Assembly (NCBI GenBank): GCA_020061125.1
Contig: JAGUYV010000178.1
Span: 1 to 15,698, forward strand
DNA: 15,698 nucleotides
Direction of reading: 5' to 3'
Source of the DNA: a bacterium
Lineage (GTDB): Bacteria; UBP15; UBA6099; DSWB01
Positions 3-15,495 of the stretch are shown here, piece after piece; the stretch's first letter is position 1, and the number at the start of each line of letters is the position of its first letter. Under the pieces are notes generated by a model, which was given only the letters and a program-made list of their open reading frames with translations, was not told the origin of the DNA and ran no database searches. The position numbers and the translations under genes are program-made.

Positions 3-137
3 GCTCTCAACCGGTTCGCGGCGCTGCCCCCCGAAGAGCACGCGCGCATGGCCGCCGCCGCCCGCGCGCAGGCCATGCGTTTCTCTTGGGACAGCGCGGC
101 GAACGCCATGGCGAAACTCTGTGAACAGCGCATGTAA
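3..137 (+). CDS. C-terminal end of a glycosyltransferase (partial)
   Basis: Only the last 44 codons are present; the gene begins before the window and ends with TAA. The visible tail is helical and alanine/arginine-rich, with an ARMAAAARAQAMRFSWDSAA stretch. The pattern of a short basic helix, then F-S-W and another helix, is how many GT4-family (glycogen phosphorylase fold, GT-B) glycosyltransferases end. Family assignment from such a short tail is inference. The context supports it, because a second GT4-like gene and sugar-cluster-type methyltransferases follow on the same strand. 71 bp separate it from the next gene, so it may be co-transcribed or may end a preceding unit. Confidence 0.55.
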   Translation, partial: ALNRFAALPPEEHARMAAAARAQAMRFSWDSAANAMAKLCEQRM

Positions 138-208: not shown

Positions 209-1717
209 ATGGCATTGAAAGTACTGTTCATCAATCCGCCCTGGTACAGGCTACAGGGCCTCATGTCCACTTATCCGCCCATGGGATCTCTTTACATCGC
301 CGCCGTGCTCGAGCGGGATGGATTCGACTGCTGTGTATGGAACGCGGATTATTCAAGCAAGCCTCTCAAAGTATCCGAAGGCTCCTCTGCAACCACAACC
401 GCGGAGATGACCCGGAAATTTCAGGAATACAAAGATCTTCTTAATGATCTGAACAAGCCGGTCTGGCAGGAAGTCAGAACTGTGATACAGGAAGAGAAAC
501 CCGATGTGGTGGGGCTGTTGTGTTACACCACATCGGTGCAATCCGTATTGAACACCGCCGCCATCGCGCGGCAGGTGAATCCCGAATGCATCATTGTATG
601 CGGGGGACCTCACGCAACTGTGCGTCCCGAGGATTTGCTTTCAGACAATTCTGCAGTGAACTATGTGATCCGCGGCGAAGGCGAGACCGCGATGCTGCAT
701 TTCATGCGAACTCTGCGCGACGGCGGAGATCCGTCCGGTGTTCCGGGCCTCGTGTTCCGCAACGGCGCCGGTCTTGTCTCCAATGAGCGTGCCGAGTGTT
801 ATGAAGACACGGCCGCGCTGCCCGTGCCGGCCAAGCATCTGCTCCGCCATGCGGACCGTCTGCCGGCCGTGGTGTTTCAGCCAATCTTCTCCTCGCGCGG
901 TTGTCCCGCGAAATGTATTTATTGCAGTTCCTTTCACATCTTCGGCAGAAAACCCAGGGCCGTTCCCGTGGAGATCGTGATTGAAGAAATCGAACTGCTC
1001 AAGAAAAACTTCAATGTGCATCATTTCTTCATCTGCGACGACACCTTCGCCAGCGAGCGGGAACACACCATGACGCTGCTCCGGGAAATCGTCCGCCGCA
1101 GGCTCAACATCACTTGGGGCTGCCAGACGCGCGGAGAAAAACTTGATGAAGACCTTGTGCGCGCTATGAAAAAGGCGGGCTGCACCCAGGTATCCATAGG
1201 CGTGGAAACCGGATCTCCGCGCATCCGAAAGCTCATCAAAAAAGGCAACACAAACGAAGATGTGGAACGCGCCGTTGCGCTGCTCAAAAAATACCGCATT
1301 GAGGTTGCAACTTTCTTCATGTTCGGATTTCCCACCGAGACCCGCGAAGACATCGAGCAGACCGTCGCGTTCATGAAAAAACTCGATCCATATGTGGCGC
1401 ACTGCAACATCGCCACCCCGGACCCTGGAACGGAATTTATGGAAATGGCGCGCGCGCAAAACCTCATGCCCGCAACCATCACGGACTGGAGCATGCATTA
1501 TCACCAGAGTCCGGACATGTTTATCACCGACCAGTTCACGCCCGATGAAAAGCTGGAACTGATCGCAAAACTTCAAAAGGTTTTCGACGCGCACAACAAG
1601 CGCAAGGCGCGGCTGGATCTGATCAAACGCGCGCCGCTTTATGTGCGCATCATCATGAAGGAAAAACTCTACAGGCATCCCGCATATTTGATTGGCAAAT
1701 TGCGGGATCTCACCTGA
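209..1717 (+). CDS. B12-binding-domain radical SAM protein
   Basis: A 502-residue radical SAM enzyme of the cobalamin-binding (class B type) architecture. The N-terminal Rossmann-like domain (about residues 1-190) opens with LFINPP, continues with PPMGSLYIAAVLE and carries GGPHAT at 132-137, all hallmarks of B12-binding domains in this family. The radical SAM motif CPAKCIYC follows, with C232, C236 and C239 (CX3CX2C) to hold the [4Fe-4S] cluster and SAM. The barrel continues with GVETGSP and FFMFGFPTET, which are typical of this fold. The classical DxHxxG cobalamin-ligand motif is absent, as in many relatives, so any cobalamin would bind without a protein histidine ligand. Relatives methylate or rearrange unactivated carbons; the substrate here is unknown. 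A GGGG tract lies 10 nt before the ATG. It is the first complete gene of a run of five tightly packed genes with glycosyl- and methyltransferases. Confidence 0.88.
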   Translation: MALKVLFINPPWYRLQGLMSTYPPMGSLYIAAVLERDGFDCCVWNADYSSKPLKVSEGSSATTTAEMTRKFQEYKDLLNDLNKPVWQEVRTVIQEEKPDVVGLLCYTTSVQSVLNTAAIARQVNPECIIVCGGPHATVRPEDLLSDNSAVNYVIRGEGETAMLHFMRTLRDGGDPSGVPGLVFRNGAGLVSNERAECYEDTAALPVPAKHLLRHADRLPAVVFQPIFSSRGCPAKCIYCSSFHIFGRKPRAVPVEIVIEEIELLKKNFNVHHFFICDDTFASEREHTMTLLREIVRRRLNITWGCQTRGEKLDEDLVRAMKKAGCTQVSIGVETGSPRIRKLIKKGNTNEDVERAVALLKKYRIEVATFFMFGFPTETREDIEQTVAFMKKLDPYVAHCNIATPDPGTEFMEMARAQNLMPATITDWSMHYHQSPDMFITDQFTPDEKLELIAKLQKVFDAHNKRKARLDLIKRAPLYVRIIMKEKLYRHPAYLIGKLRDLT

Positions 1718-1737
1718 CGCCCGAAGAAAAGGAGCAC

Positions 1738-2460
1738 ATGGGACTGCGCGAACGCTGGAACAGGGTGGCTGCGGACATTGCCGACAGCCCCGCGTACTGG
1801 ACCCTGACCGCGACCAATGCGGGGATGCGGCGCGCGCTGGACCCGGCGCTGACGGCCCTGCCGCCGGGAATCGCCCTTGATGCGGGCGCCGGGGGGTTGG
1901 CCTTCAGGCAACTGATTGCGGCCCGGCCCGGTATTCATTATATTTCCTGCGATGTTGCGCCTTCGCACCGGGATCTGGACTTTCTGGCCGACGGATGCGC
2001 GCTCCCCGTGCGCACCGCTGTAGCAGACAGCGTGATTTGTTCAGCCGTGATTGAACATGTCCCGGACACGGCCGCGCTTCTCGGGGAACTGCACCGAGTG
2101 CTGCGCCCCGGCGGACGCCTTGTGCTCACGGTTCCGCACTTTCATTACATCCATGACGAGCCTCACGACTATTACCGTTTCACGGAGTTCGGCATCCGCC
2201 TTGTGCTGGAGCGCGCCGGGTTTTGCGTGGACATCGTCACGCCTGTTGGAGGGCTGGCGGCGTTCTTGTCAACTCTGGCGTCCAACGCTTTCATGGGGCT
2301 GTGCGCCAGCCCGGGCTTTGTGCGCGCAGCGGCGCTCGCCGCAAACCGCGCCTTCGTCGCCATGAGCGCCGCCCTGGATCGCGTCACGGGCGGAGGCGGC
2401 AAATTCGCCATCGGCTATGTGGTGTCCGCGCGGACCGGCGTCTCGGAGGCCGCTTCATGA
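1738..2460 (+). CDS. Class I SAM-dependent methyltransferase
   Basis: A 240-residue Rossmann-fold methyltransferase of the Methyltransf_11/UbiE-like type. Motif I is LDAGAG at 47-52. A CD acidic motif (SCDVAPSH) follows strand 2, DGCALPV lies before strand 4, and AVIEHVPD then LRPGGRLVLTVPHF give the post-motifs. The later segment with HDEPHDYYRFT is typical of methyltransferases found in polysaccharide or lipid-linked sugar clusters. It is soluble and probably methylates a small molecule or a glycan precursor; which atom it methylates cannot be told. AAGGAG sits only 3 nt before the ATG, a short but usable ribosome-binding spacing. The gene starts 20 bp after the radical SAM gene, and its TGA overlaps the ATG of the next gene (ATGA), so it is translationally coupled. 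Confidence 0.85.
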   Translation: MGLRERWNRVAADIADSPAYWTLTATNAGMRRALDPALTALPPGIALDAGAGGLAFRQLIAARPGIHYISCDVAPSHRDLDFLADGCALPVRTAVADSVICSAVIEHVPDTAALLGELHRVLRPGGRLVLTVPHFHYIHDEPHDYYRFTEFGIRLVLERAGFCVDIVTPVGGLAAFLSTLASNAFMGLCASPGFVRAAALAANRAFVAMSAALDRVTGGGGKFAIGYVVSARTGVSEAAS

Positions 2461-3527
2461 ATGTCGGCCTGTTCGGTCCATTCGATCTCTCCCGCAGGGA
2501 CGGCAATACGATTCGCATACTGATGCAGGCCCGCGGATTGCTCGAAAACGGGTTCAGGAATTTCACCTTGTTCGGATACGAGGCGTGCCTAGATCTTGAT
2601 GTTACGCAACGCGTGGTGGGACAGAGATTGTTTCCGAAGAAATTCCCCTTCCGGCAAAAGCTGCCGCCTCTCGGCGTCAGCCTCGCGCATGCGCATCACT
2701 ACCATGGCGCCATGCTGGTGCGCGAACCCTATATCGTGGACATGCCCAGCTTCACCATGCTGCAAACCGACGCCATGTACCGCGTCACGGGCGCCCCACT
2801 CAAAAGAATCTTTATGCGCCGCGTTTTCAATCCCCTTGTCCAGATTCCCACCGAGTCGCGCGTGATCCGCAACGCGCGCCATGTCATCGCCGCATCGGAA
2901 AACATCAAGCGCCACATTATGGAAACTCTGCCCGGCGTATCCACGCCCATCACAGTAATTACCAACCCCATTGATCCGCGCGCATACGAGCCGTCCCCTT
3001 GCCATGACTTGCGCGTGGGGTTGTCGTCGTCGGATTTTGAGGATACCATTGACTCGCAGTGCCTGGAGTTCGCAGTGCAGATAGCAAAGCGCGCCCCCGA
3101 TGTCGAGTTTCTGGTTGCAGGTCCCATGGGCGCGGCCAAAAAGGCTTTGCTGGAAACCATGCCCAACATGAAGGCTCTCGGGAGGCTTCCCTTCGAAGAC
3201 TATCGCCGTTTCCTGCGCGACATCTCCGTTTTCCTCATGCCATACGGCAATTACGACTATGGCGGATCCAAGTTCAAGCTGCTGGAGGCGGGCGCGTGCG
3301 GGCTGGCCGTGGCCTCCACCCGCGCCGGCGCCATCGGCTTCGAGCCGCAGGAGGTATTGCTGATCGAGGACACTCCGAACGCGCTGGCCGAAAAGATCCG
3401 CTCGCTCAAAACCCCGGCTCTGCGGCGCGAGCGGGGCATGGCCCTGCGCCACGAAATCGAATCCCGACACGACTATCTCAAGGAAGCCGAAAAGCTGATC
3501 GCCGTGTACGAAGAGGCCGCGTTGTGA
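2457..3527 (+). CDS. GT4-like glycosyltransferase (glycosyltransferase group 1)
   Basis: A 356-residue GT-B glycosyltransferase. The start is set at the ATG overlapping the previous stop (ATGA), where the family-like N-terminus MNVGLFGPFDLS begins. The reading frame stays open further upstream, but that part only shadows the methyltransferase gene. The C-terminal nucleotide-sugar domain shows FLVAGPMG, ALGRLPFEDYRRFLRDISVFLMPY, then GGSKFKLLEAGACGLAVAST with E277. This matches the GT4 signature in which an acidic residue contacts the sugar nucleotide; the first E of the classical EX7E is replaced by the GGSKFK region. It is likely a cytoplasmic or membrane-associated enzyme adding one sugar to a lipid-linked or soluble acceptor. 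The donor is unknown. Its TGA overlaps the GTG of the next gene by 4 bp. Confidence 0.8.
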   Translation: MNVGLFGPFDLSRRDGNTIRILMQARGLLENGFRNFTLFGYEACLDLDVTQRVVGQRLFPKKFPFRQKLPPLGVSLAHAHHYHGAMLVREPYIVDMPSFTMLQTDAMYRVTGAPLKRIFMRRVFNPLVQIPTESRVIRNARHVIAASENIKRHIMETLPGVSTPITVITNPIDPRAYEPSPCHDLRVGLSSSDFEDTIDSQCLEFAVQIAKRAPDVEFLVAGPMGAAKKALLETMPNMKALGRLPFEDYRRFLRDISVFLMPYGNYDYGGSKFKLLEAGACGLAVASTRAGAIGFEPQEVLLIEDTPNALAEKIRSLKTPALRRERGMALRHEIESRHDYLKEAEKLIAVYEEAAL

Positions 3528-4906
3528 AAGTCGCCTTTCTAAATCCCCCCCGCGTGATGGAGCGTCTGACCGAAGACTTCACGATCGCATACAATGTGTC
3601 GCGGTTCAGCCGCGGCGTGGACATCGTGTATGGCGTGACGCCGCCCACGGAACTGGCCATTCTCGCCGCGGCCGTGAAGGAAAAGCACGAGGTCGCGTTC
3701 TGCGACGCCAACGCACTCCACATGTTCGCCCACGAAGTATGTGAATGGATGCGCGACGAGCGCCCGGATTTCCTGGTTGTTCGCGGAGGCGACGCCACAC
3801 TCACGGCTGATGTGATGTTTTATCATTATGCGGAAGCCATGGGGATTCGCGCCGTGCTCTGGGAAGACACGCTCAACCCGCTCTATTCACAAAGGCTCAT
3901 GAGCGACTTCCGGCTCAAGCGCGTGCTGTACGGCGAGCCGGAGCGCAAAATATTCGAGATACTCGACGGGGCCGAAGGCCTGGTGGGCGGCGACATCATT
4001 CCGGACATGGACGCCCTGCCCCAGCCCCTCATGGACGCTCTTCCCATGGAGCGATATGTCAAGGAAGGCCGCCGCAACTGGTATTCATTCCTGCAGCGCG
4101 GATGCGGGTGGGGCGCTTGTGCTTTTTGTCTCATTGCTCCGTCGGACATCACACACCGGATGCGCAGCATTCCTCACATCAAACAAGAACTTGAGATGCT
4201 GAAAGAACGCGGCGTGGAGACCATCTATTTCTGGGATCCGCAGATCAACCCGAGCCGGGAGCGAGTGCACGCATTGTGCGATCTGTTCGCGCAGTATCCG
4301 TTCAAGTGGGAAGCATGGGCGCGGGTGGATGTCATGGACGATGAGCTTGCGGCCGCAATGAAACGCAGCGGGTGCTTCCGCCTCCATCTGGGCGTGGAAA
4401 ACGGCGACGACCATGTTCTCAAAAGCATCAACAAAGGCACAACCGCGGACATGATCCGCAACGCATTCCGCGCGCTTCGGGCTCACGGCATCGAGCGGGC
4501 CGCCTACTTCTGCATGGGAACACCGGAGGAGTCAGAAGACAGCTTCCGCCGGACCATGAGCTTGATACGCGAGATAAAACCCACGACCATCGTGCCCGCA
4601 AGCTACCGCCCGTTCCCAAATGTGCCGCTCACGGACCAGGCGCGGCACGCGGGCATGCTGGTGCAGGACCATTACGATCTGGCCCTTGAAAGCGACTGCT
4701 TCGGCACAGCCTTGGCAACGCGCACCAGACACATGAGCGCCGAGCAACTGTCGAAATGGATGGACCGAATGCATGCGCTGTCAACACGGATCGCTCTGCG
4801 CTCCTACGCTTTCAAACCGTCCGTCTGGAAACCCTATGCGCGCATTTTTATGGTGCGCGCAATCCGCAACCGGCTGGTCCGCCGCAGAACGCCTCACGGA
4901 CAATGA
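3524..4906 (+). CDS. B12-type radical SAM protein with CX4CX2C cluster motif
   Basis: A 460-residue radical SAM protein. The start is set at GTG 3524, which overlaps the preceding stop (GTGA) and gives the family-typical beginning VKVAFLNPPR (V read as Met); the frame stays open upstream only as a shadow. The N-terminal domain (about 1-170) has TPPTELAILAAAVKEKHEV, as in B12-binding domains. The usual GGPHAT loop is degenerate (RGGDAT) and no DxHxxG is present. The cluster motif RGCGWGACAFC has C194, C199 and C202, a CX4CX2C spacing instead of the usual CX3CX2C. The barrel continues with FWDPQINPS, LHLGVENGDD and AAYFCMGTPEESED. The fold is clear but the reaction is unknown. An arginine-rich C-terminus (RNRLVRRRTPHGQ) might contact membrane or nucleic acid. 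It ends 4 bp before the next gene. Confidence 0.85.
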   Translation: MKVAFLNPPRVMERLTEDFTIAYNVSRFSRGVDIVYGVTPPTELAILAAAVKEKHEVAFCDANALHMFAHEVCEWMRDERPDFLVVRGGDATLTADVMFYHYAEAMGIRAVLWEDTLNPLYSQRLMSDFRLKRVLYGEPERKIFEILDGAEGLVGGDIIPDMDALPQPLMDALPMERYVKEGRRNWYSFLQRGCGWGACAFCLIAPSDITHRMRSIPHIKQELEMLKERGVETIYFWDPQINPSRERVHALCDLFAQYPFKWEAWARVDVMDDELAAAMKRSGCFRLHLGVENGDDHVLKSINKGTTADMIRNAFRALRAHGIERAAYFCMGTPEESEDSFRRTMSLIREIKPTTIVPASYRPFPNVPLTDQARHAGMLVQDHYDLALESDCFGTALATRTRHMSAEQLSKWMDRMHALSTRIALRSYAFKPSVWKPYARIFMVRAIRNRLVRRRTPHGQ

Positions 4907-4910
4907 CCCC

Positions 4911-5957
4911 ATGACAGTAAACCCCAGAACAATACGCGCCGGTCTGCGCACACTGCTCAAAAGTGGTGTCATTGGCGACGCACCCATCCACCTGCAGATC
5001 GAGCCGTCAAGCTACTGCAATTACCGCTGCCTTATGTGCGACCGCCACGCCATCCCCAACCCCTCGCACATGCCGGTCGCGAAATTCCGCGCCATCATAG
5101 AGCAATGCAGGCCATTCTATGTAACACTTAGCGGCTATGGAGAACCCCTGCTGCACCCGGATCTTCCGGAAATGATCCGCCTGGTCAAGGAAACGGGTGC
5201 GGGCGTGAACACCACAACAAACGGGTTTCTGCTGGGCCGGCGCGCGCAGGAGCTTGTGGACTCCGGGCTGGACACAATCAACATTTCACTGGATGCGGCA
5301 ACCGCGGACAGCTACAGCCGCATCAGGCGCAACAGCCATTTCGACAAGGTCATTTCAAACATCGGCATGCTGCGGGCCGCGAGGGGCGGCCGAAGCGCGC
5401 CGCACATGCGCGCCACATTCGTCATCCAGAGGCATAACCTCGATGAATTAATTCCGTTTCTGGATCTCGCGCGGAACGCGGGCTTCGACGCCGTGCTGTT
5501 CCAGCCGCTGCTTCTGTTTGACATGGAAGATGCGCTGTATTCGGAGCTTGCCGGGGATATGGACGAAACCGCACTACGCGAAGCTCTTGAGAAAGCCAGA
5601 TCACACGCGCACCGCCTGGGCATTCCCGGCAACCTTGACCGGCTGATTGCACGCCTTGACGATTTCCTCTCCGTGCAGTATAACAAACAGGAGCGGCCGG
5701 TGTTGCTGAAACAATGCGCCAAACCATGGTTCAGCGCCTACATTTCCGTGGAGGGAGACCTGCGCCCTTGCTGCAGCTTCGCGCCCATCGCCATGCGGTT
5801 CGGAAATGTATTTGAGACGGACATCCTGGAAATCATGAACGGCCCCAGGGCTAGAGAATTCCGAAAACGGCTCAAGCAGGGCCGTCCGCCGCACAGTCTC
5901 TGCTCACGGTGCGTGCCGGAATCCCTGTGGGACCTCATGCGCACGGCATCGTTCTGA
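4911..5957 (+). CDS. Radical SAM protein with short SPASM/twitch-like C-terminal domain
   Basis: A 348-residue radical SAM enzyme. The N-terminus holds IEPSSYCNYRCLMCD with C36, C40 and C43 (CX3CX2C), followed by TLSGYGEPLLHPDL (the GGE-type SAM-contact strand) and NTTTNGFLL, which are textbook SPASM-family features. The C-terminal region has C269-x12-G-x4-C287, C288, and then C331-x2-C334 near the end, enough for about one auxiliary Fe-S cluster. The full seven-cysteine SPASM pattern is not completed, so a twitch-like single-cluster domain is likelier. Such proteins are common in capsule, exopolysaccharide and lipopolysaccharide clusters, where most are uncharacterised. ATG 4911 lies 4 bp after the upstream stop; no good Shine-Dalgarno is visible, so coupled translation is inferred. 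The frame extends upstream to 4773 only as a shadow. Confidence 0.87.
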   Translation: MTVNPRTIRAGLRTLLKSGVIGDAPIHLQIEPSSYCNYRCLMCDRHAIPNPSHMPVAKFRAIIEQCRPFYVTLSGYGEPLLHPDLPEMIRLVKETGAGVNTTTNGFLLGRRAQELVDSGLDTINISLDAATADSYSRIRRNSHFDKVISNIGMLRAARGGRSAPHMRATFVIQRHNLDELIPFLDLARNAGFDAVLFQPLLLFDMEDALYSELAGDMDETALREALEKARSHAHRLGIPGNLDRLIARLDDFLSVQYNKQERPVLLKQCAKPWFSAYISVEGDLRPCCSFAPIAMRFGNVFETDILEIMNGPRAREFRKRLKQGRPPHSLCSRCVPESLWDLMRTASF

Positions 5958-5967
5958 CCGGTGACAT

Positions 5968-6879
5968 TCAGCCGGACGGCTTTTTCCGGAACACCAGAAT
6001 AATGGGCGTCTGCCAGTGAAATAACTTGCCAAGGGCCAACAGCGCGGGAGTCAGCCCCATCCGTTTCGCCACGCGCACCATGCGCTTGAGCCGCCCGAGT
6101 TCCGCCCACTCCGAGAACTGTTCCGAACGCAATCTTTCAGCCCAGATCCCATAGCCCCAGTCCAGAATCTCGATGTTGCGGCCATGCGGTTTGAGCCAGC
6201 GCTTGAGGCCGCCCACCGTCACAAAATGCAAGGTGTCGAGATACGCTGGAGACCGTTTGAAAAGCCTCACATAGAGCCGGGCCAGAAAATGCGGCATGTG
6301 GGGGATCCAGAAAATGCCGTAATGCCCTTCCCAGAAAGAGCCGTAGTTGGGGACGAGAATAAAACCGGTTCCGCCGGGTTTCAGGGTTCGTACGGTTTCG
6401 GCAAGAACCCTGCCCGGATCCTGCACATGTTCCAGAACATTAAAGGAAAACACCACATCGAAAGCATTGTCGCGGAAAGGAAGCTCCTCGCCCACGGCGT
6501 CGCAAAGGCAAACGGGCTCGCCATGATGCTTAAAAAACGCCCGCGCCAAATTGATGTTGGCTGGAAAATCATCTCCGCCCGGCTCCACGCCTGCGGGGAT
6601 GGCGCCGAAGTCATGGGCCGCGCTCAAAAGTTGCGCACCACATCCGGATCCGATCTCCAACGCCCGCTTTCCCGCAAGCCCTCCCGGCGTTGCGTTGTTC
6701 ACAAGCGCAAGCTGTTCCCGCGCCCGGTCCAGGCTCATAAATTCCCGGCATATCCGCTCAATGTCGGCGTCACGATGAAATATGCCTTCAAAATATTTGG
6801 CTGTTGCGGTGAAAAAGTCTTGAAACGCGGCATCCAGATCCTGCCCGTCATGGCGAATCCGGCCCTGGAACTCTGTCAC
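5968..6879 (-). CDS. Class I SAM-dependent methyltransferase
   Basis: A 303-residue methyltransferase starting at GTG 6879, which overlaps the stop of the gene upstream (GTGA). AAAGG lies about 8 nt before the start. Motif I is LEIGSGCG at 74-81, followed by GVEPGGDD, DAVGEELPFRDNAFDVVFSFNVLEHV and LKPGGTGFILVPNY, the full Methyltransf_11-type core. An aromatic-rich segment (YGSFWEGHYGIFWIPHMP) and a basic C-terminal third (RLKRMVRVAKRMGL, ending in FRKKPSG) may contact a lipid or membrane surface; this is inference. It is co-transcribed with the zinc-ribbon methyltransferase and converges on the radical SAM operon with only 10 bp between stops. The substrate is unknown; a sugar or lipid-linked substrate fits the neighbourhood. 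Confidence 0.82.
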   Translation of the reverse strand: MTEFQGRIRHDGQDLDAAFQDFFTATAKYFEGIFHRDADIERICREFMSLDRAREQLALVNNATPGGLAGKRALEIGSGCGAQLLSAAHDFGAIPAGVEPGGDDFPANINLARAFFKHHGEPVCLCDAVGEELPFRDNAFDVVFSFNVLEHVQDPGRVLAETVRTLKPGGTGFILVPNYGSFWEGHYGIFWIPHMPHFLARLYVRLFKRSPAYLDTLHFVTVGGLKRWLKPHGRNIEILDWGYGIWAERLRSEQFSEWAELGRLKRMVRVAKRMGLTPALLALGKLFHWQTPIILVFRKKPSG

Positions 6880-7850
6880 AGATCGAGCCTTTCTCCAACT
6901 GGTTTTTCAAATGCCATTTCGAGTAAATTCCCTCGGCCAAACAGCACATTGATCGCTTCGAACGGCGCGCCCGCTGCAAGCAGCAACGGACTGGCATTGC
7001 TGATGCGCAATCCTAAAGACTTCCCGGGCCAGCCATGATTCACGACAATGGAAAAATTCCAGGCCATTGGCCCGAATGTGAACTGAAACCGTTTTCCCAT
7101 TGAGGTGAAGCCCGCGCCAGCGGCAAGTCGCGCCAGGGTTTCCGGAGTGAAATGCCACAGATGCCGCGGTAGGTGATACCCCCACCAAAAACGGCCGAAA
7201 ACGCCTCGGTCCAGCGCATCCATGTTCGGTGTTTCCGTAAGCAGAATGCCTCCTGGCTTGAGGATGCGGAAAATTTCGCGTAAAAGCGCGCCGGGCGCCT
7301 CCACATGTTCAAGAACATGGGTAAGCGTCACGGCGTCGAATGACTCGCCGGAATAACCCATTTCCTCGAGCACGCCGCAATCTACATCAAGACCGGCGGC
7401 TCTGACGGCGGCTGCGACTCGCGGGTTTGGCTCCACGCCTTTGAGCTTCCATGTTGTGCGCCTCTGTAAGTATTTGAGAAGTGAGGCGTCACCGCAGCCG
7501 ACATCAAGCAATGAGACGCCGCAGTCTCCGAAACGCGCTTTGAGCCTCCTGTATCGCGGCTCATTCGTGCGCCGGTCAAAAATCCGCGCCAGACCCGCCG
7601 GAGGCGCCGCGTTGCCCGCTTGACGGTAGCAATGGTAGTCATCAGGATAAAAGTACTCAATAAGCTGTTTCATGACCGGCCGGGGACATGTGTAGCACAA
7701 ACCGCAATCCTCGCAACACACTATGTGAAATGCCATGCCGGATGGAATTTCATAATCAAACGACGATATCATTCGAGAACGGCGGCTGCTTCCGCAATTG
7801 GCGCAGCAGGGGATCTCCCAAAGAATTTCTTGGTCTTCAATCGGTTTCAT
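6876..7850 (-). CDS. Class I methyltransferase with N-terminal zinc-ribbon-like region
   Basis: A 324-residue methyltransferase, ATG start, first gene of a two-gene operon. The N-terminus carries C16-x2-C19 and C46-x2-C49 with further cysteines at 15, 45, 52 and 55, a layout common in methyltransferases with a small zinc-binding head. The catalytic core shows LLDVGCGDASLL (motif I, 114-120), GVEPNP, FDAVTLTHVLEHVEAPG and LKPGGILLTETPN. The later WWGYHLPRHLWHFTPETL is a signature of methyltransferases in capsule, O-antigen and lipid-modification clusters. It is probably cytoplasmic; the substrate is unknown. A strong promoter lies about 25-55 bp upstream of the ATG. The TGA overlaps the GTG of the following methyltransferase. 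Confidence 0.85.
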   Translation of the reverse strand: MKPIEDQEILWEIPCCANCGSSRRSRMISSFDYEIPSGMAFHIVCCEDCGLCYTCPRPVMKQLIEYFYPDDYHCYRQAGNAAPPAGLARIFDRRTNEPRYRRLKARFGDCGVSLLDVGCGDASLLKYLQRRTTWKLKGVEPNPRVAAAVRAAGLDVDCGVLEEMGYSGESFDAVTLTHVLEHVEAPGALLREIFRILKPGGILLTETPNMDALDRGVFGRFWWGYHLPRHLWHFTPETLARLAAGAGFTSMGKRFQFTFGPMAWNFSIVVNHGWPGKSLGLRISNASPLLLAAGAPFEAINVLFGRGNLLEMAFEKPVGERLDL

Positions 7851-7977: not shown

Positions 7978-7996
7978 TTCGCATGGCGCACCCCGC

Positions 7997-8001
7997 GGAG
8001 G
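7997..8001 (+). promoter_or_regulatory. Ribosome-binding site deciding the start at 8007
   Basis: GGAGG lies 5 nt before ATG 8007. An in-frame ATG at 7983 has no comparable site and would add eight residues that do not look like part of the protein, so 8007 is chosen. Confidence 0.6.
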
Positions 8002-8006
8002 GCTGC

Positions 8007-10244
8007 ATGACGGAGTTTATCACCGGGTTGTTTCATGGAGGATTTGCGTTTCGCGCAGTGCTTCTTCCATTCATTCTCGGCTTGCTGCTGCGCGCGCGCA
8101 GGCTGCGCCGCAAGGGGCTGTTCCTGTGGGACGAGGCGGCGTTCGTGCGCGAGACGGGCGTGACTTTCAGAACCTTTGAATTCCTGTTCCGCAACTTCGG
8201 CGAATTGCGGCGCTTGCGCGGCGGGGCGGACAAGGCTGCCATCGAGGATGTCCGCAAGCGGTATGTGGAACATGCTGCCGGGGATTATGTGTATTACAAG
8301 CCGTGGCACATGTTTGCGCTGCGGATCGGAACGGCGCTGACGCGGCAGACGGATTTCGGGGCGGCGCTGCCTTCGCTGACATTCGGGCTGGCGGCAATCG
8401 CCGCCGTGTGGGGCCTGGGACAGATGGCGCAGTGGCCCGCCGCGGGAATCGCCGGCGCCGCGGTTCTGGCGGTGAGCGGGCTGCATGTACTGCATTCGCG
8501 TTCGGCCGAACCCGAGCCTGGCACGGCGCTTTGCTTCACCATGATGCTCCTGCTGTCCCTGGCGCACAAGACCGCGCTTGCCGCCGGGGGCGCGCATTTT
8601 TTATGGAACGCGCAGTCTTTTGCTCTGCTGGCGGGATGCGGCGTGTGTCTGGGCGGCACAATGATGTTCAATCCGGCGTGGATTGCGCTCACTCCGCCCG
8701 TGTTCATTGCGGGAGAGGTTGTTTACGGACTTGCCGCAGGATCCGGCGCAGCCGCGATTGCGGTTTCTCTGGGCGCGCCTCTGGCCGCAGCGGCCGCAAC
8801 AGTCGTCATCACGGACATTCCGTTCATGCTTTGCGCAAAACTCATTCCCGGCATCAAGATCGTACCGCATACAGTCAAGCTTTATCAGTTGGCGCTGCGT
8901 CTGTTCACGGCGTTCGCGCAACGGCGCGCGGATGAATCCGCGACTGCGCAGGACGAACTCGGCGTGTCGCTGCCCCGGTTTTACCATCTGCGTTTTTATC
9001 CGGAACTGCTGCGGCATACCGAGGGCGCAGCGGTTCTGGTTGCGGCGGGCGCGGGCCTGGTTGTAACCGCGGCGCAGTTCACGCCCGCGGGCCTCATGCT
9101 GGGCGCGCAGCTTGCGATCATCCTGGGCATGCTTGTGGTGGTGCCATTGAAGGCGGCGCGCGCGTGCGTGTTCTGGCTGCCCCTTCTGTGCCTGTTCGCA
9201 GGCGCGGGGCTGGCCGCCGCGCCCGCTTGGCTGGGGCTGCCCGCTCTGGCGTGGATTCTCGTGCGCGGGTCGGTTTACTGCTGGAAGATCGGGAACATGA
9301 CTTCCGCCATGCGCCTGGCAGCGGAATTTGTGCGCGCGCGCGGCGAGACTGCGTTCGCGTCCACCAGCGCGCCATTCACCCTGCTCTACGGCGAAAAAAC
9401 GCCCATCGCACCGCGCGACTACGCCTTCATCTGCCACCTCTACCACGAGCAGAAAACGCGCTTCATCGCCATAGACCACCATCAGCACTTCCCGGGCATG
9501 AAGTGGGACGAAACCCAGGAGCTGATCCAGAACCATTGCCGCCCGGTGTTCGAGGTAGAGGATCCCTGCGCCACCTTTTTCCCTCTGCGCATGGAGGTGG
9601 AGCTTTACACCCGGCGCGGGGTGTACGAACAGGGGCCGGTGGAGGTGGCGCCGTGGAACCGGTTCCGCATGGCGCCATCGGAGGCCGACCGGCGCGTGCG
9701 CGTGTACGATTTGAACGAGTTTTTCACGCGCCTGGAATCCCCCGGCATCATCGAGTACATCAGTCTGTACATGGCCCGGGATCTGTGTGAAAAATCACGG
9801 TTCGAAGAAGCTCTGAAATTTCTGCGCCTGGCCGAAAAAAACGGCTTGCGCGAGGATTCGCGGGTCAAGTACTTCACGGCCCTGTGCCACGCGCAACTGG
9901 GCAAAGAGGAGTGGGCGGCGCGCGGCATGAAAAAGCTGGCGGAGGACCCGGCCGCGCGGCCCGAAGTGCGGGACAGCGCGCAGGTCTTCCTCCACATGAA
10001 AGCCATCAACGAGGCGGTCCGCGCCCTGCGCTTCGAGGACGCTCTGGAAGATATCAAGAAAGTTCTGGACATCAAGCCGAGGCAAACGGTGGCGATGCTT
10101 TACGAGGCCGTGTGCATTTTTCATCTGCGGGGCGCGGACGCGGCCCGGCCCGTGTTCACAAAACTGCTGCGCGACCCCGCGTATCCGGACTCGCACAAGG
10201 ACACTCTGCGCGAGTTCGCCCTGCAGCATCAAATCGTTAATTAA
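8007..10244 (+). CDS. GT-C (PMT/ArnT-like) membrane glycosyltransferase with C-terminal TPR-like region
   Basis: A 745-residue protein. Residues 10-29 form the first membrane span. LFLWDEAAFVRETG with D42-E43 follows and matches the catalytic acidic pair of GT-C enzymes in the first external loop. KPWHMFALRIGTAL and HSRSAEPEPGTALCF are further PMT_2/GT39-like landmarks. About ten hydrophobic segments run to about residue 430. A soluble part follows, and from about residue 580 helical repeats of TPR type appear (DLCEKSRFEEALKFLRLAE, RALRFEDALEDIKKVLDIKP). GT-C enzymes use polyprenyl-phosphate sugars to glycosylate lipid A, glycans or proteins on the outer face of the membrane. This gene is probably the membrane-facing partner of the local glycan genes. 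The donor and acceptor are unknown. The glycosyltransferase call is moderately secure; the TPR region is inferred from helix pattern. Confidence 0.7.
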   Translation: MTEFITGLFHGGFAFRAVLLPFILGLLLRARRLRRKGLFLWDEAAFVRETGVTFRTFEFLFRNFGELRRLRGGADKAAIEDVRKRYVEHAAGDYVYYKPWHMFALRIGTALTRQTDFGAALPSLTFGLAAIAAVWGLGQMAQWPAAGIAGAAVLAVSGLHVLHSRSAEPEPGTALCFTMMLLLSLAHKTALAAGGAHFLWNAQSFALLAGCGVCLGGTMMFNPAWIALTPPVFIAGEVVYGLAAGSGAAAIAVSLGAPLAAAAATVVITDIPFMLCAKLIPGIKIVPHTVKLYQLALRLFTAFAQRRADESATAQDELGVSLPRFYHLRFYPELLRHTEGAAVLVAAGAGLVVTAAQFTPAGLMLGAQLAIILGMLVVVPLKAARACVFWLPLLCLFAGAGLAAAPAWLGLPALAWILVRGSVYCWKIGNMTSAMRLAAEFVRARGETAFASTSAPFTLLYGEKTPIAPRDYAFICHLYHEQKTRFIAIDHHQHFPGMKWDETQELIQNHCRPVFEVEDPCATFFPLRMEVELYTRRGVYEQGPVEVAPWNRFRMAPSEADRRVRVYDLNEFFTRLESPGIIEYISLYMARDLCEKSRFEEALKFLRLAEKNGLREDSRVKYFTALCHAQLGKEEWAARGMKKLAEDPAARPEVRDSAQVFLHMKAINEAVRALRFEDALEDIKKVLDIKPRQTVAMLYEAVCIFHLRGADAARPVFTKLLRDPAYPDSHKDTLREFALQHQIVN

Positions 10245-10295: not shown

Positions 10296-11189
10296 TCAGC
10301 TTTCCTGGCCCTGGTTTGAATCTGTGTTCTCTTTGGCCTTTGCGGCCGCGGCTTTTTCGGCTTTTTCTTTTTCCAGTTGCGCTATGGCGGGATTCTCGCC
10401 GATGAACAAAATGGTGTTCTGGGGGCACACGGCGGCGCACATGCCGCATTCGATGCACTTGTCGTAATCTATCACGGGCAGATTGGCCACCATTTCGATG
10501 GCCTGCACAGGGCAGCTTTTGGCGCACTTGGCGCAGGCGATACACGCAATTTTGCACTGGTCCTTGGCGCTCTTGCCCTTGTCGTGGTTGCAGCAAAGCA
10601 CCATCACGCGCTTGGATTCCGGCAACAGGGAGATGAGATTTTTAGGACACGCGGACACGCACGCGCCGCAGCCCACGCATTTGTCGCGGTCCACCAGGGG
10701 CGGCTGTTTCTCGCGCAGATGAATGGCGTCGAATTTGCAGGCCTTGACGCACGAGCCCATGGCCATGCACCCGTAGCGGCAGGGGTTCGGCCCCTCGGCC
10801 AGAATGATGGCTTCGGCGCACGAGATGTCACCGAGGTACTTGTACTTCTTGTTGTCCAGGCTCATGTCGCCGCGGCAGCGCACCACGGCAACTTCCCGCT
10901 CTTTTTCCTCGACGGACATTCCGAGCAGCGCGGCGATCTTCTCGCCGCACGAGCGGTCCACCACGCACAGGTTGGGCGGCATCTTGCCCGTGACCACGGC
11001 TTCGGCGTACGCGCTGCATCCGGGCAGGCCGCATCCGCCGCAGTTGGCGCCGGGCAGCAGCGCCTCTACCTGCTCGATGCGCGGATCCGTTTCGATGTAG
11101 AACACTTTGGCGGCCACGGACAGGGCCACGCCAAGCAGCAGACCCAGGAGGCCGACGATTAACACCGCGTTGAGAATTTCCGGGGGCAT
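10296..11189 (-). CDS. rnfB: RnfB, iron-sulfur subunit of the Rnf complex
   Basis: A 297-residue electron-transfer subunit. Residues 5-27 form the N-terminal membrane anchor. ANCGGCGLPGC with C50, C53, C58 and C75 holds the first [4Fe-4S] cluster. Four more four-cysteine sets follow: C137/141/147/151, C171/174/177/181, C216/219/222/226 and C245/248/251/255. This is the long, multi-cluster RnfB of anaerobes and is larger than the enterobacterial RsxB. RnfB is thought to accept electrons from ferredoxin at the cytoplasmic face. A charged, alanine/lysine-rich tail (LEKEKAEKAAAAKAKE) ends the protein. It is the last gene of the operon, 51 bp after rnfA, with only a weak GGGA ribosome site 12 nt before the ATG. 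Confidence 0.95.
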   Translation of the reverse strand: MPPEILNAVLIVGLLGLLLGVALSVAAKVFYIETDPRIEQVEALLPGANCGGCGLPGCSAYAEAVVTGKMPPNLCVVDRSCGEKIAALLGMSVEEKEREVAVVRCRGDMSLDNKKYKYLGDISCAEAIILAEGPNPCRYGCMAMGSCVKACKFDAIHLREKQPPLVDRDKCVGCGACVSACPKNLISLLPESKRVMVLCCNHDKGKSAKDQCKIACIACAKCAKSCPVQAIEMVANLPVIDYDKCIECGMCAAVCPQNTILFIGENPAIAQLEKEKAEKAAAAKAKENTDSNQGQES

Positions 11190-11240
11190 AAGATTCAGTC
11201 CCGTTTAATTTTTCCAAACTTGGCGCCGGCTGCGGCCGAG

Positions 11241-11816
11241 CTACATCATGCCGGCGAAACCCATGAAAGCGATGGCGAGCAGCCCGGCCACGATGAAAGC
11301 GATGGGAAACCCCTTGAGGGACGCGGGCACGGATGCGCCCTCAAGCCGCTCCCGAATGCCGGCCATGATCACGAGCGCAAGGGTGAACCCCAGCGCGCCG
11401 CCCACGGCGTGGAACATGGACTGCAGCAGCGTGTACTGCAGGTCTATGTTCAGAATGGCGATGCCCAGCACCGCGCAGTTGGTCGTGATGAGCGGCAGAT
11501 ACACGCCAAGAGATTTATACAGCGCGGGCGCGGATTTCTGAATCACCATTTCCACGAACTGCACCAAGGCTGCGATGACCAGGATAAACACGATGGTGCT
11601 CAAATACTGCAGCCCATACGCCACAAGGATGTACTGGTAGATCATCCACGACGCCGTGGCCGCGAGCAGCATCACAAAGGTGACGGCCATGCCCATTCCG
11701 ATGGCGCTTTCCACTTTCTTGGAAACGCCCACGAACGGGCAGATGCCAAGGAACCGCGACAGCACGAAGTTGTTCACGAACACGGCGCCGATGAGTATCA
11801 GTATCAGCTTGGTCAT
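11241..11816 (-). CDS. rnfA: RnfA, membrane subunit of the Rnf complex
   Basis: A 191-residue protein, the standard RnfA length, with about six membrane segments. The N-terminus FVNNFVLSRFLGICPFVGVS (13-32) is the RnfA signature. C26 and C114 (TTNCAVLG) are two of the four cysteines that, with the two of RnfE, are known in this family to hold an intramembrane [2Fe-2S] cluster. GGAG lies about 9 nt before the ATG, which overlaps the stop of rnfE (ATGA). RnfA and RnfE are inverted-topology homologues forming the central electron and ion path. Confidence 0.95.
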   Translation of the reverse strand: MTKLILILIGAVFVNNFVLSRFLGICPFVGVSKKVESAIGMGMAVTFVMLLAATASWMIYQYILVAYGLQYLSTIVFILVIAALVQFVEMVIQKSAPALYKSLGVYLPLITTNCAVLGIAILNIDLQYTLLQSMFHAVGGALGFTLALVIMAGIRERLEGASVPASLKGFPIAFIVAGLLAIAFMGFAGMM

Positions 11817-12406
11817 GATTTCTTCTCCAGGCGGTTCATGATTCCCATGAGAATGGCCAGGGTGAAGAAAGCGCCTGCCGGGAGCACGAACAGCAGGAAC
11901 GGATGGGCCATATACGCGTGGCCCAGAAGCGGGCGCCCGAGAATGGTGCCCGCGCCGAGAATTTCACGGATGCTTCCTATTACGCTCAAGGATAGGGTGA
12001 AACCCAGGCCCATGCCCAGACCGTCGAGGATTGAGTCGCCGACGCCGTGCCTGTTGGCGAAGGCCTCGGCCCGGCCCAGCACAATGCAGTTGACCACAAT
12101 CAGCGGAATAAAGAGACCGAGCGACTTGTGCAGGACCGGCACATACGCGGCCAGGCTCAAATCGGTGATGGTCACAAACGCGGCGATGACTACCACATAC
12201 ACGGGGATGCGGATTTTATTGGGCACGATGCCGCCGATGAGCGAGATCATGGCGTTGGAGCAGACCAGAACCGCAGCCGTGGCCAGACCCATGCCAATGC
12301 CGTTGATCAGCGATGTGGTCACGGCCAGCGTGGGGCACATGCCAAGCATGATCCGGAAGGTCGGGTTTTCCTTGTACAGCCCTTTGGTGAATTCACGGAA
12401 GGACAT
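11813..12406 (-). CDS. rnfE: RnfE, membrane subunit of the Rnf complex
   Basis: A 197-residue integral membrane protein. FTKGLYKENPTFRIMLGMCP at the N-terminus and VNCIVLGRAEAFA further on identify RnfE/NqrD. C24 and C107 are the counterparts of RnfA C26 and C114 for the shared [2Fe-2S] cluster. Hydrophobic segments fill most of the chain. GGAGG lies 9 nt before the ATG, inside the end of rnfG, with which it overlaps by 14 bp. The stop overlaps the rnfA start, so production of E and A is coupled. Confidence 0.95.
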   Translation of the reverse strand: MSFREFTKGLYKENPTFRIMLGMCPTLAVTTSLINGIGMGLATAAVLVCSNAMISLIGGIVPNKIRIPVYVVVIAAFVTITDLSLAAYVPVLHKSLGLFIPLIVVNCIVLGRAEAFANRHGVGDSILDGLGMGLGFTLSLSVIGSIREILGAGTILGRPLLGHAYMAHPFLLFVLPAGAFFTLAILMGIMNRLEKKS

Positions 12407-12944
12407 GCTGCATGGCCTCCGTCCCCTGGCGAACGCCGGTTGTCACGGCCTTGCTGGTGATGGTGGCCGCGGTGATGCCGTCAATTTCGCCCTGCTTTTC
12501 GTCTTTATTGGAAAGATACAGCTTGTCTGCTGTTTTGCCCTGGAACTGTCCAAGGAATCCCGGCGCCGCGGCTTTGGCGCCCAGGCCCGGAGTTTCCTGC
12601 ATTTCCATGATCTGCACGCCCGATATCGCGCCGTTCGGGTCCAGGCCCACCATGGTCTTGACCGCGCCGCCGTACCCTTTCGGCTCCACCTGAAACACCA
12701 CGCCCACGGGGTTGCCGTTCGGATCCTTGCCCACGGCGTATGTTTTGGGTCCTTTGCCGGCGGTGTTCTCTTTTTCTTCAAATGAAGCGGCCGCGGGCAG
12801 CACGGCGCGCATGGCCGCCTGGCGCTCTTTTTCTTTTTGTTCCCTGATAAGGGGTGCGGTGGCGCTGTTGGTGAACGCCAGGCCGAGCGACGCCAGGAAG
12901 CACACAATCATGAGGAAGCCGCCGAGTTTGATTGCGTCTTTCAT
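12393..12944 (-). CDS. rnfG: RnfG, flavinylated subunit of the Rnf complex
   Basis: A 183-residue protein with one N-terminal membrane span (about residues 7-24) and an extracytoplasmic FMN-binding domain. The start is the ATG at 12944 overlapping the rnfD stop; the frame stays open further upstream only as a shadow of rnfD. KGYGGAVKTMVGLDPNG and ETPGLGAK are RnfG/NqrC landmarks. The flavin-attachment segment reads DGITAATITS, so T161 is the expected covalent FMN site; the common S/T-G-A-T is T-A-A-T here. ApbE would have to attach the FMN, and no apbE is in the window. It passes electrons between RnfD and other membrane subunits. Confidence 0.93.
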   Translation of the reverse strand: MKDAIKLGGFLMIVCFLASLGLAFTNSATAPLIREQKEKERQAAMRAVLPAAASFEEKENTAGKGPKTYAVGKDPNGNPVGVVFQVEPKGYGGAVKTMVGLDPNGAISGVQIMEMQETPGLGAKAAAPGFLGQFQGKTADKLYLSNKDEKQGEIDGITAATITSKAVTTGVRQGTEAMQHVLP

Positions 12945-13924
12945 GCCGCGGCCCCCTTGCCCGCGCCGAACTCGCGCGGAATGGTGTACCGGTCTATGAG
13001 CGGCGCCACGGCGTTCATGATCAGAATCGCGTAACACACGCCCTCGGGATACCCGCCGAAGTTGCGGATCAGCCAGGTCAGGAACCCGCACGATGCGCCG
13101 AAGATCACGCGCCCGCGCGGCGTCACCGGCGAGGTCACCATGTCCGTGGCCATGAAGAACGCGCCCAGAATCAGGCCGCCGGACAGGATCTCGCTCAACG
13201 GGTCGCGCCCGGTGAACAGGGACAGGACGAACACGGCCGCCACGAACGGGACCGGGATGTGCCAGGTGATGATTTTGCGGTAGAACAGATACGCGGCGCC
13301 AACGAGGAGGAGCAGGGCCGAGGTTTCGCCCAGGCTGCCGGAGATGTTGCCGATGAACAGGTCCGCATACGCGGGCAGGTTCGCGCCCGCCGCGGCTTCC
13401 TTGACCATGCCAAGCGGCGTTGCGGAGGTGACTCCGTCCAGGGCGGTGGCGGGCGCTTTCCATGTTGTCATGGCTACGGGCCACGAGGCCAGCAGGATGG
13501 CGCGGCCCACGAGCGCGGGGTTTAAGATGTTCTGCCCGATGCCGCCGAAAACGGCCTTTCCAAAGAAGATGGCGCAGGCGCCGCCCACGGCGGCGGTCCA
13601 CCACGGCAGCGTGGGCGGCAGGGTGAAGGATAAAAGCAGGCCGCAGATCACCGCACTCCAGTCGTCTATGACCACGCGCTGGCCGAACAGATACCGCGCG
13701 CACAGGTACTCGGTGAGCAGGCAGCTCGCGATGGCCGAGACCATGACGATGGCCGCACCCGCGCGGAAATAGAACAGCGCGCCCAGGGCTGCGGGGGCAA
13801 GCGCAATCACCACATCGCGCATGATGCGCGGCACGTCGTCCGGGGATTTGATGTGCGGCGACACGGATACGGACAGCCGCATCCGGTATGTTTCTGGAAG
13901 TTCGATACCCTTGCTCTTGGCCAC
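12941..13924 (-). CDS. rnfD: RnfD, flavinylated membrane subunit of the Rnf complex
   Basis: A 327-residue membrane protein of the RnfD/NqrB family. SVSVSPHIKSPDDVPRIM at the N-terminus, FGGIGQNILNPALVGRAILL and DMVTSPVTPRG are diagnostic. The covalent FMN segment is DGVTSATPLG, with T169 as the expected attachment residue. About eight to ten membrane spans are visible. The chosen start is GTG 13924, weakly preceded by GAG; ATG 13882 (MRLSVSV) is a possible alternative that would lose 14 residues. The gene is separated from rnfC by 123 bp of hairpin-rich sequence, while its stop overlaps the rnfG start. Confidence 0.94.
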   Translation of the reverse strand: MAKSKGIELPETYRMRLSVSVSPHIKSPDDVPRIMRDVVIALAPAALGALFYFRAGAAIVMVSAIASCLLTEYLCARYLFGQRVVIDDWSAVICGLLLSFTLPPTLPWWTAAVGGACAIFFGKAVFGGIGQNILNPALVGRAILLASWPVAMTTWKAPATALDGVTSATPLGMVKEAAAGANLPAYADLFIGNISGSLGETSALLLLVGAAYLFYRKIITWHIPVPFVAAVFVLSLFTGRDPLSEILSGGLILGAFFMATDMVTSPVTPRGRVIFGASCGFLTWLIRNFGGYPEGVCYAILIMNAVAPLIDRYTIPREFGAGKGAAA

Positions 13925-13941
13925 TGCTCTAATCCGTTTCG

Positions 13942-13984
13942 CGGCTGCTTCGCAGCCGGCGCTGTGTCTTTGGCGCCAGGCGCC
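13942..13984. repeat. Hairpin-rich segment between rnfC and rnfD
   Basis: CGGCTGC and GCAGCCG (13942-13948 and 13952-13958) form a perfect 7-bp stem with a 3-nt loop. Next to it GGCGCC occurs twice (13972-13977 and 13979-13984), and GGCGC at 13958-13962 can pair with GCGCC at 13973-13977. In the mRNA no U-run follows, so this is not an ordinary terminator. It may stabilise the rnfC transcript end, act as an attenuator, or be a REP-like dispersed element. A further 5-bp stem (GCAAT/ATTGC) lies at about 13998-14012. The rest of the 123-bp gap shows nothing recognisable. Confidence 0.5.
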
Positions 13985-14047
13985 GATTCGTAATGATGCA
14001 ATGCTTTATTGCTTTGCGTCCTGTGCGTACGCTATGCAATCTCCGCG

Positions 14048-15418
14048 TTATTCTTTTTCCTTTGCTTTTGCGGCTTCTTCCTGTTTCTTTTTTTCGGCGT
14101 CTCGCTGCTGGCGCATTTTCATGACCTCGGCCTTGCCGCGCTTGAGCACCTGCACGATGGGGCGCTTGCCCAGGCAGGCGTAGGCGCAGGACCCGCACTC
14201 GATGCAGGAGAGGATGCCGAGGCGGTCGGCGCGGTCCCAGTCTTCAGCATCCACGGCGTCCACGAGCTCATTGGGCAGCAGCCCCATGGGGCAGGCGTCC
14301 ACGCAGCGCGCGCAACGCACGCACGCGCGCGGCTCCACATCCTGCACCATGCTGCCGGGCAGGCCCAGGATGCCGCTCGTGCCCTTGATCACCGGCACGC
14401 TCAAGGTGAACTGGGCCATGCCCATCATGGGGCCGCCCATGACCACTTTGGACACATCGTCCGTCAACCCGCCGCAGTAATCTATGACCTCGAAGAACGG
14501 GGTGCCGATACGCGCGCGCACATTCTTGGGATTTTTAATCGAGAATCCGCTGACCGTGATCACGCGGTCCATGACCGGCTTGCCGAGCGCCACCGCGTTC
14601 CAGACCATGACCGCCGTTGTGACATTCTGCACCACGACTTTGACATCCATGGGCAGCTTGCCCGGCGGCACTTCGCGCCCGGTGAGGGATTTGATGAGAT
14701 GCTTTTCCGAACCCTGCGGGTACTGCACATGCAGGCCGATGACTTCGATGTTCGGGAATGCGGCCGCTTTGCTTTTGAGCAGTTCGATGGCGTCGGGCTT
14801 GTTATTCTCGATGCCGATGAGGCCTCGGGTCACGCCCAGGGACTTCATGATGATGTCCATGCCCTTGAGAATGAGATCGGGCATTTCGAGCATGGTGCGA
14901 TGGTCGGCGGTGAGGAAAGGCTCGCACTCGGCGCCGTTCAGAATCACGGTGTCAATGGTTTTGTCCGGAGGGGGCGAGAGCTTGACATGCGTGGGGAAAG
15001 TTGCGCCGCCCATGCCCACGAGGCCACCCGCGGCGATGCGCTTTTTGATGGCCGCGGAGTCCAGGGCCGCGGGGTCCGCAGGCTCGAACGCGGTTTCCTC
15101 ATCTTTGCCGTCGTTTTCCACCACGATGGCCTGAATGGGACGGCCGAGCGGATGCGGGAAATCGCCGATGGCCACGACTTCGCCGCTGATGCTCGAATGG
15201 ATGGGCACGGACACGAACCCGCCCGGCTCTGCCAGAATCTGGCCGCGGAGCACGCGGTCGCCAATGGCCACCACGGGTTTGGCGGGCGCGCCGATATGCT
15301 GGGACACCGGGAAGATGGCGCGCGCGGGCGCTGGCATGTCCTCGATGGCCTGCCCGGCCGTGAGCTTGTGCTCGTGCGGGTGGACCCCGCCGTGGAATTT
15401 GTGCGTCTTTGCGCCCAT
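14048..15418 (-). CDS. rnfC: RnfC, NADH-binding iron-sulfur subunit of the Rnf complex
   Basis: A 456-residue peripheral subunit at the cytoplasmic face where NAD+ or NADH reacts. The N-terminus KFHGGVHPHEHK, then GMGGATFPTHVKLSPP and NGAECEPFLTADHR, identify RnfC. Two [4Fe-4S] motifs follow: C366/369/372/376 and C405/408/411/415. The second ends in CLGK rather than the usual C-P. The C-terminal tail is lysine/glutamate-rich (about the last 30 residues) and probably helical. The ATG at 15418 is chosen because the family N-terminus begins here. A TTG at 15481 is in frame, but the predicted transcript would start only about 8 nt before it. It is the first gene of the rnf operon. Confidence 0.94.
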   Translation of the reverse strand: MGAKTHKFHGGVHPHEHKLTAGQAIEDMPAPARAIFPVSQHIGAPAKPVVAIGDRVLRGQILAEPGGFVSVPIHSSISGEVVAIGDFPHPLGRPIQAIVVENDGKDEETAFEPADPAALDSAAIKKRIAAGGLVGMGGATFPTHVKLSPPPDKTIDTVILNGAECEPFLTADHRTMLEMPDLILKGMDIIMKSLGVTRGLIGIENNKPDAIELLKSKAAAFPNIEVIGLHVQYPQGSEKHLIKSLTGREVPPGKLPMDVKVVVQNVTTAVMVWNAVALGKPVMDRVITVSGFSIKNPKNVRARIGTPFFEVIDYCGGLTDDVSKVVMGGPMMGMAQFTLSVPVIKGTSGILGLPGSMVQDVEPRACVRCARCVDACPMGLLPNELVDAVDAEDWDRADRLGILSCIECGSCAYACLGKRPIVQVLKRGKAEVMKMRQQRDAEKKKQEEAAKAKEKE

Positions 15419-15455
15419 TTTTGCGCCCGTCCGCCACGCCCCGGAGTTCCGATAC

Positions 15456-15461: not shown

Positions 15462-15495
15462 GCAATAAGGCGTGGAATCAATTTGCAACCATACT

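Follow-up and report, generated by a model that had tools for sequence, protein, structure and literature searches.

Several radical S-adenosylmethionine (SAM) enzymes act on sugars or on sugar-bearing lipids. AprD4, the 1,2-diol dehydratase of the apramycin pathway, deoxygenates C3' of the paromamine sugar with a reductase (PMC5461906). GenD1 is a cobalamin-dependent C-methylase of the gentamicin sugar with a reported CX4CX2C spacing of its cluster motif (PMC4340712), and HpnJ, an enzyme of bacteriohopanetetrol cyclitol ether formation, follows HpnI and HpnK and has a sugar-bearing lipid as its substrate (PMC12583986). Blocks of radical SAM and glycosyltransferase genes were noted earlier on pBHWA1 of Brachyspira hyodysenteriae and are thought to serve lipooligosaccharide (LOS) or glycosylation (PMC4267127). 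Clusters of this general kind are thus already known and chemically uncharacterised: several bacteria encode radical SAM enzymes in their surface-glycan loci, with no known product there as far as we found. Here we describe a five-gene cluster encoding three radical SAM enzymes, a GT4-type glycosyltransferase and a methyltransferase, on contig JAGUYV010000178.1 of a bacterium of the phylum UBP15. The whole stretch analysed (15,698 nucleotides, hereafter the window) is the entire contig, from an assembly of 4.1 Mb that is 79% complete. In our assessment the cluster is probably a segment of a strain-variable pathway for an envelope glycan (O-antigen, lipopolysaccharide (LPS) or glycolipid type) that includes radical tailoring enzymes. 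The proposed glycan role is based on the gene families, their tight packing, the recurrence of a trio formed by gene 4, gene 5 and a GT4 gene, the glycan-locus context of homologues of genes 1 and 5, and the AprD4-like predicted fold of gene 4.

Gene content of the cluster

The five open reading frames (ORFs) share the + strand and are spaced 20, -4, -4 and +4 bp apart (Table 1). The tight packing claimed in a preliminary description of this DNA is therefore borne out, and all of its genes are present, with Pfam domains that agree with three radical SAM enzymes, one GT4 and one methyltransferase. Genes 1, 4 and 5 score above the cutoff of Radical_SAM (PF04055) and belong to the superfamily. 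The same description counted two B12-type radical SAM proteins, which holds for gene 1 and is not borne out by sequence for gene 4, a B12-type N-terminal domain appearing there only in a structural model.

Gene 1 combines Radical_SAM (1.7e-32) with an N-terminal B12-binding domain (6e-21; PF02310 74.9 bits, cutoff 32.1), and is thus a B12-binding radical SAM protein (class B type); its cluster motif is CX3CX2C. The best NCBIfam model is HpnJ (TIGR03471), at 172.9 bits against a cutoff of 577.6. Scores are also below the cutoffs for AprD4 (NF033070, 119.3 versus 500 bits) and for the PhpK and Sden_1168 P-methyltransferases (133.4 and 140.3 bits, cutoffs 600 and 575). Genes 1, 3 and 5 were each searched in 290 genomes, and gene 4 in 386. 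The closest homologue of gene 1 (38%, genome G122) ends an LPS-type cluster in which it is preceded by two GT4 genes, a Wzy_C (O-antigen ligase-like) gene and a GT9 (heptosyltransferase) gene. Another homologue (33%) is near Bac_transf, a gene resembling lipid A acyltransferases and one further radical SAM gene of B12 type. The host genome itself has about 26 B12-type radical SAM genes, counted as matches to the HpnJ model, several of them in adjacent pairs (contigs C92, C39, C3 and C41). Ten neighbours of these other genes were inspected and are mostly unrelated, one being a Bac_transf, which does not establish a glycan theme across the genome.

Gene 2 matches Methyltransf_11 (1e-12) and gene 3 the GT4-type Glyco_trans_1_2 (2e-13). 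Gene 5 combines Radical_SAM (1.5e-21) with SPASM (3.5e-14; PF13186 53.3 bits, cutoff 21.5) and has a CX3CX2C cluster motif; it belongs to the SPASM family, with C269, C287, C331 and C334 invariant across five homologues. Compared with solved structures, its SPASM region is nearest BtrN and its radical core is near BlsE. Some homologues of gene 5 have GT4, methyltransferase and YfhO-like genes around them. On a plasmid of Azospirillum the neighbours are rfaD and glycosyltransferases, and a Brachyspira plasmid with six radical SAM/SPASM genes has homologues within its rfb region. Searches of plasmid records with genes 4 and 5 returned distant homologues only. On pBHWA1 (12825-18075 of locus L316), five radical SAM/SPASM genes are in tandem, four of them grouping in the tree, and adjoin glycosyltransferase and rfb genes. 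A contig classed as viral (L234) also carries, at 6001-6876, a radical SAM gene with 30% identity to gene 5.

Predicted fold and cluster motif of gene 4

Gene 4 matches Radical_SAM (2.6e-18) and no other Pfam domain. No B12-binding domain was found with Pfam, and GGxH, a motif shared by gene 1 with many of its relatives, is absent from gene 4 and likewise from the two closest homologues of gene 4. An AlphaFold model (mean pLDDT 75.3, pTM 0.79, 16 sequences) predicts a Rossmann-type N-terminal domain followed by a radical SAM barrel, and the N-terminal domain would be B12-type by this predicted fold only. The top structural match of the model is AprD4 (PDB 6fd2; Foldseek E 3e-21, TM 0.71), with a VIA Z of 30.7 and a root mean square deviation of 3.3 over 393 residues at about 20% identity. 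Next come the methylase MgmA, with a Z of 27.8, and then OxsB and MiaB, both at about 26. Sequence searches also favour AprD4 (profile match E 7e-25). AprD4 is not known to require cobalamin. Gene 4 is nevertheless outside the AprD4 diol dehydratase family NF033070 (61.8 bits versus a cutoff of 500); its best NCBIfam match is the PhpK methylase family, at 111.2 bits and a cutoff of 600, and it scores 38.8 bits against Sden_1168 P-methyltransferases (cutoff 575). No cutoff of AprD4, HpnJ, PhpK or another named family was reached in these tests.

The cluster motif of gene 4, RGCGWGACAFC, reads CX4CX2C, unlike the usual CX3CX2C. Based on a DNA scan for RGCGWxxCxFC, the longer spacing is shared by over 25 further radical SAM proteins from a wide range of phyla, the majority with B12-type length and family matches. 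Three were placed in the tree and form a clade separate from gene 4, and the two closest homologues of gene 4 carry CX3CX2C. We therefore dropped the spacing as a marker of the gene-4 lineage. Judged from these sequences, it has probably evolved on more than one occasion and does not settle what gene 4 does. The host has a second B12-type radical SAM gene with CX4CX2C (RGCAKGKCIFC; locus L037, G000:C3, position 6724, - strand), which the tree places apart from gene 4. Both a Methylococcaceae genome bin (L130:1069-2070) and a viral contig (L179:6986-7987) encode a 334-aa protein with RGCGWGKCxFC; the two copies are near-identical around the motif, and the L130 copy has no NCBIfam match at E 1e-15. 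The scan of genome contigs with gene 4 returned no near relative, nor did a gene-4 profile scan of viral contigs.

Recurrence of the gene 4-gene 5-GT4 trio

The two best homologues of gene 4 (31% and 30%, nearly full length) are in genomes G152 and G289, from one family in another phylum, and form one clade with gene 4 (support 100/96). In both genomes the gene-4 homologue is directly followed by a gene-5 homologue (30%) and then by a GT4-like gene, the weak gene-3 homologue of the two loci (L230 and L231). Identity between the two trios is 71-78%. A Wzx-type flippase is upstream of the trio in L231. In L230 (G152), a Maf/MptE-like gene is downstream, and a sugar-nucleotide epimerase-like gene and a nucleotidyltransferase are nearby. 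Local guanine-plus-cytosine (GC) content at the gene-4 homologue loci is 0.34 in G152 and 0.30 in G289, and only 2 of 19 genomes of the trio-bearing phylum have a gene-4 homologue. The L230 locus also has a caspase-domain (Peptidase_C14) gene nearby (3264-4076).

The trio is a recurrent arrangement, of which at most a few independent occurrences were seen. The preliminary description proposed looking for the same five-gene order in other genomes, for example around the gene-4 protein. Such a search recovered the trio in two genomes but not the full order, which was found in none of the 290-386 genomes sampled and in none of six relatives from the host's own taxonomic order; these six have no match to genes 1, 3, 4 and 5 at the thresholds used. 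Among the genomes searched, the exact five-gene set is private to the host.

Surroundings of the cluster

Because the window is a whole contig, the locus is cut at its left edge, where the end of a probable sugar transferase remains. Based on this ORF end and on two methyltransferases downstream, we regard the five genes as a piece of a variable surface-glycan locus that is larger than first described. A search with the second methyltransferase within the host phylum returned generic methyltransferases only. The hairpin after gene 5 counts as weak evidence, since the window has 20 such terminator-like matches in all. Third-position GC is 0.66-0.75 in genes 1-5, 0.59-0.66 in the two methyltransferases and 0.80-0.86 in the Rnf genes of the same contig. 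This gap, together with the lack of matches in the six same-order genomes, is suggestive of an exchangeable surface locus.

Beyond the methyltransferases, window positions 7983-10244 encode a 753-aa membrane protein that has no Pfam or NCBIfam match and whose N-terminal half contains hydrophobic segments. Homologues (31-37%) are present in two same-order relatives, and one of them adjoins three methyltransferases (L225). An Rnf electron-transport operon (10296-15481, - strand) comes after the glycan locus; RnfB was assigned with NCBIfam and the remaining genes are RnfC/D/G/E/A-like by size and order.

Table 1 Features of the five-gene cluster and its immediate flanks (window positions)
Feature	Position	Strand	Basis
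3' end of upstream ORF, probably a glycosyltransferase C-terminus	3..137	+	frame ending ...LNRFAALPPEEHARMAAAARAQAMRFSWDSAANAMAKLCEQRM and stop; GT4-like by eye only
Gene 1 (P0001), B12-binding and radical SAM	209..1717	+	Pfam PF02310, PF04055; CPAKCIYC, GGPH
Gene 2 (P0002), class I SAM methyltransferase	1738..2460	+	Pfam Methyltransf_11
Gene 3 (P0003), GT4-type glycosyltransferase	2457..3527	+	Pfam PF13524/PF13692
Gene 4 (P0004), radical SAM, GTG start, AprD4-like predicted fold	3524..4906	+	Pfam, motif, AlphaFold model
Gene 4 [4Fe-4S] cluster motif CX4CX2C (CGWGACAFC)	4103..4129	+	sequence
Gene 5 (P0005), radical SAM/SPASM (twitch-like)	4911..5957	+	Pfam PF04055, PF13186; CNYRCLMC
Terminator-like hairpin and T tail, directly after gene 5 stop	5958..5985	+	consensus match only
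Methyltransferase convergent to gene 5, probably same glycan locus	5968..6879	-	Pfam Methyltransf_11 5e-17
Methyltransferase, 4-bp overlap with the 5968..6879 gene	6876..7850	-	Pfam Methyltransf_23 2e-26

Possible roles of the five genes

In an envelope-glycan pathway, the GT4 encoded by gene 3 would add a sugar to a carrier-linked glycan, and the products of genes 4 and 5 would act with it by radical chemistry on the added sugar or on its activated or lipid-linked precursor. Gene 4 would generate a 5'-deoxyadenosyl radical and most likely remove or move a hydroxyl, as in the AprD4 dehydration, C-methylation being less certain. Gene 5, by analogy with BtrN and BlsE, would most likely oxidise, epimerise or decarboxylate a sugar carbon. 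Gene 1 may add a further change to the same envelope molecule, either a C-methylation, which is plausible, or a BchE/HpnJ-like rearrangement. The methyltransferase of gene 2 and the two downstream could O- or N-methylate hydroxyls or amines of that molecule. The genes present and their order, the domain families, the cluster motifs, the fold predicted for gene 4, the recurring trio and the glycan-locus surroundings of homologues are observations; from them we infer the substrates, the reactions, the order of these steps and a single product for all genes.

Several observations weigh against an envelope-glycan segment. The contig is without genes for sugar-nucleotide synthesis, a flippase, a polymerase or a ligase, so the glycan assignment depends on the GT4 and on the context of homologues. 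The five-gene set is not conserved as a whole, and the two methyltransferases, being on the - strand, may be part of a different unit. Gene 5 has no clear position in its tree and does not group there with the homologues that adjoin gene 4 elsewhere, which leaves co-inheritance of genes 4 and 5 unproven; homologues of gene 5 from loci that have no gene 4 show a slightly higher similarity (35-36%). Furthermore, as G152 and G289 are from one family, their trios amount to little more than one independent case.

The preliminary description favoured a C-methylated or otherwise radical-modified glycan or glycolipid. Its direction is supported by the context of homologues in several lineages, but C-methylation is unproven and just one of the options, since the sugar dehydratase AprD4 is the closest match of gene 4, which is without sequence signs of B12 binding. 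If genes 1 and 4 both encoded cobalamin-dependent C-methyltransferases, the clear B12-binding domain of gene 1, the PhpK match of gene 4, the predicted Rossmann fold of its N-terminal domain and the spacing also reported for GenD1 (PMC4340712) would all be accounted for. The missing Pfam B12 match, the absence of GGxH from gene 4 and its two closest homologues and the nearness of its fold to a dehydratase argue otherwise, and since the CX4 spacing is private to gene 4 relative to these homologues, it says little on shared ancestry with GenD1. We consider this double C-methylation possible, with the odds against it; a dehydratase-like role of gene 4, without methylation, is no less likely than C-methylation. 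It is also conceivable, although a little less probable, that the five are unrelated tailoring genes of a mosaic surface-polysaccharide island and act on different molecules. The nearest homologues of genes 1, 4 and 5 are in different genomes with different partners, third-position GC varies among the genes, and the recurrent trio excludes genes 1 and 2, all as a mosaic would predict. The 4-bp overlaps between genes 2 and 3 and between genes 3 and 4, the 4-bp gap between genes 4 and 5, and the tandem recurrence of gene 4, gene 5 and a GT4 elsewhere are at odds with it.

A hopanoid-type lipid pathway, in which an HpnJ-like gene 1 makes a cyclitol ether from a glycosylated lipid and the glycosyltransferase is the counterpart of HpnI, would explain why HpnJ is the best NCBIfam match of gene 1. 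It is very improbable, and we rejected it on the low HpnJ score. It is weakened further by the lack of an HpnK-like deacetylase among the genes identified on the contig and by the host genome, where no squalene-hopene cyclase match was detected (79% complete; the model was under its cutoff in every control genome), which may count against a hopanoid product.

Returning to an envelope-glycan segment as the favoured explanation, the gene 4-gene 5-GT4 trio is what most deserves further attention. It is a small portable module in which gene 4 resembles a known sugar dehydratase, and offers a concrete target for the study of radical chemistry on envelope sugars. More speculatively, and with a low probability in our view, gene 4 may belong to a subfamily of B12-domain radical SAM enzymes that has lost cobalamin use and that, with the SPASM enzyme and the GT4, deoxygenates envelope glycans or forms keto-sugars in them by radical chemistry. 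If so, it would be a route to modified polymer sugars separate from the usual nucleotide-sugar dehydratases.

Comparison with known systems

HpnJ resembles gene 1 as its top NCBIfam model and as a radical SAM enzyme acting on a glycosylated lipid, but gene 1 is far under the cutoff and the host has no detected hopene cyclase. The pBHWA1 cluster likewise has several radical SAM/SPASM genes amid glycosyltransferase and rfb genes; it differs in that the plasmid search gave no gene-4-like protein there, and the best similarity to gene 5 is 26.5%. BtrN and BlsE, radical SAM enzymes of aminoglycoside and nucleoside sugars, correspond to the SPASM region and the radical core of gene 5, respectively, although each match spans only part of the protein and overall identity is low. 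GenD1 and GenK, both cobalamin-dependent C-methyltransferases of gentamicin sugars, perform B12-type radical SAM chemistry on a sugar, and GenD1 shares CX4CX2C with gene 4 by its published description, whereas gene 4 has no recognisable B12-binding sequence. From AprD4, gene 4 differs in the spacing of the cluster motif, which reads CPYPCRFYC in AprD4 (HMMER alignment), and in that no AprD3-like reductase is among the genes identified on its contig. Even so, AprD4, itself an enzyme that acts on a sugar, is the best PDB match of gene 4 in both fold and sequence, over nearly the whole chain.

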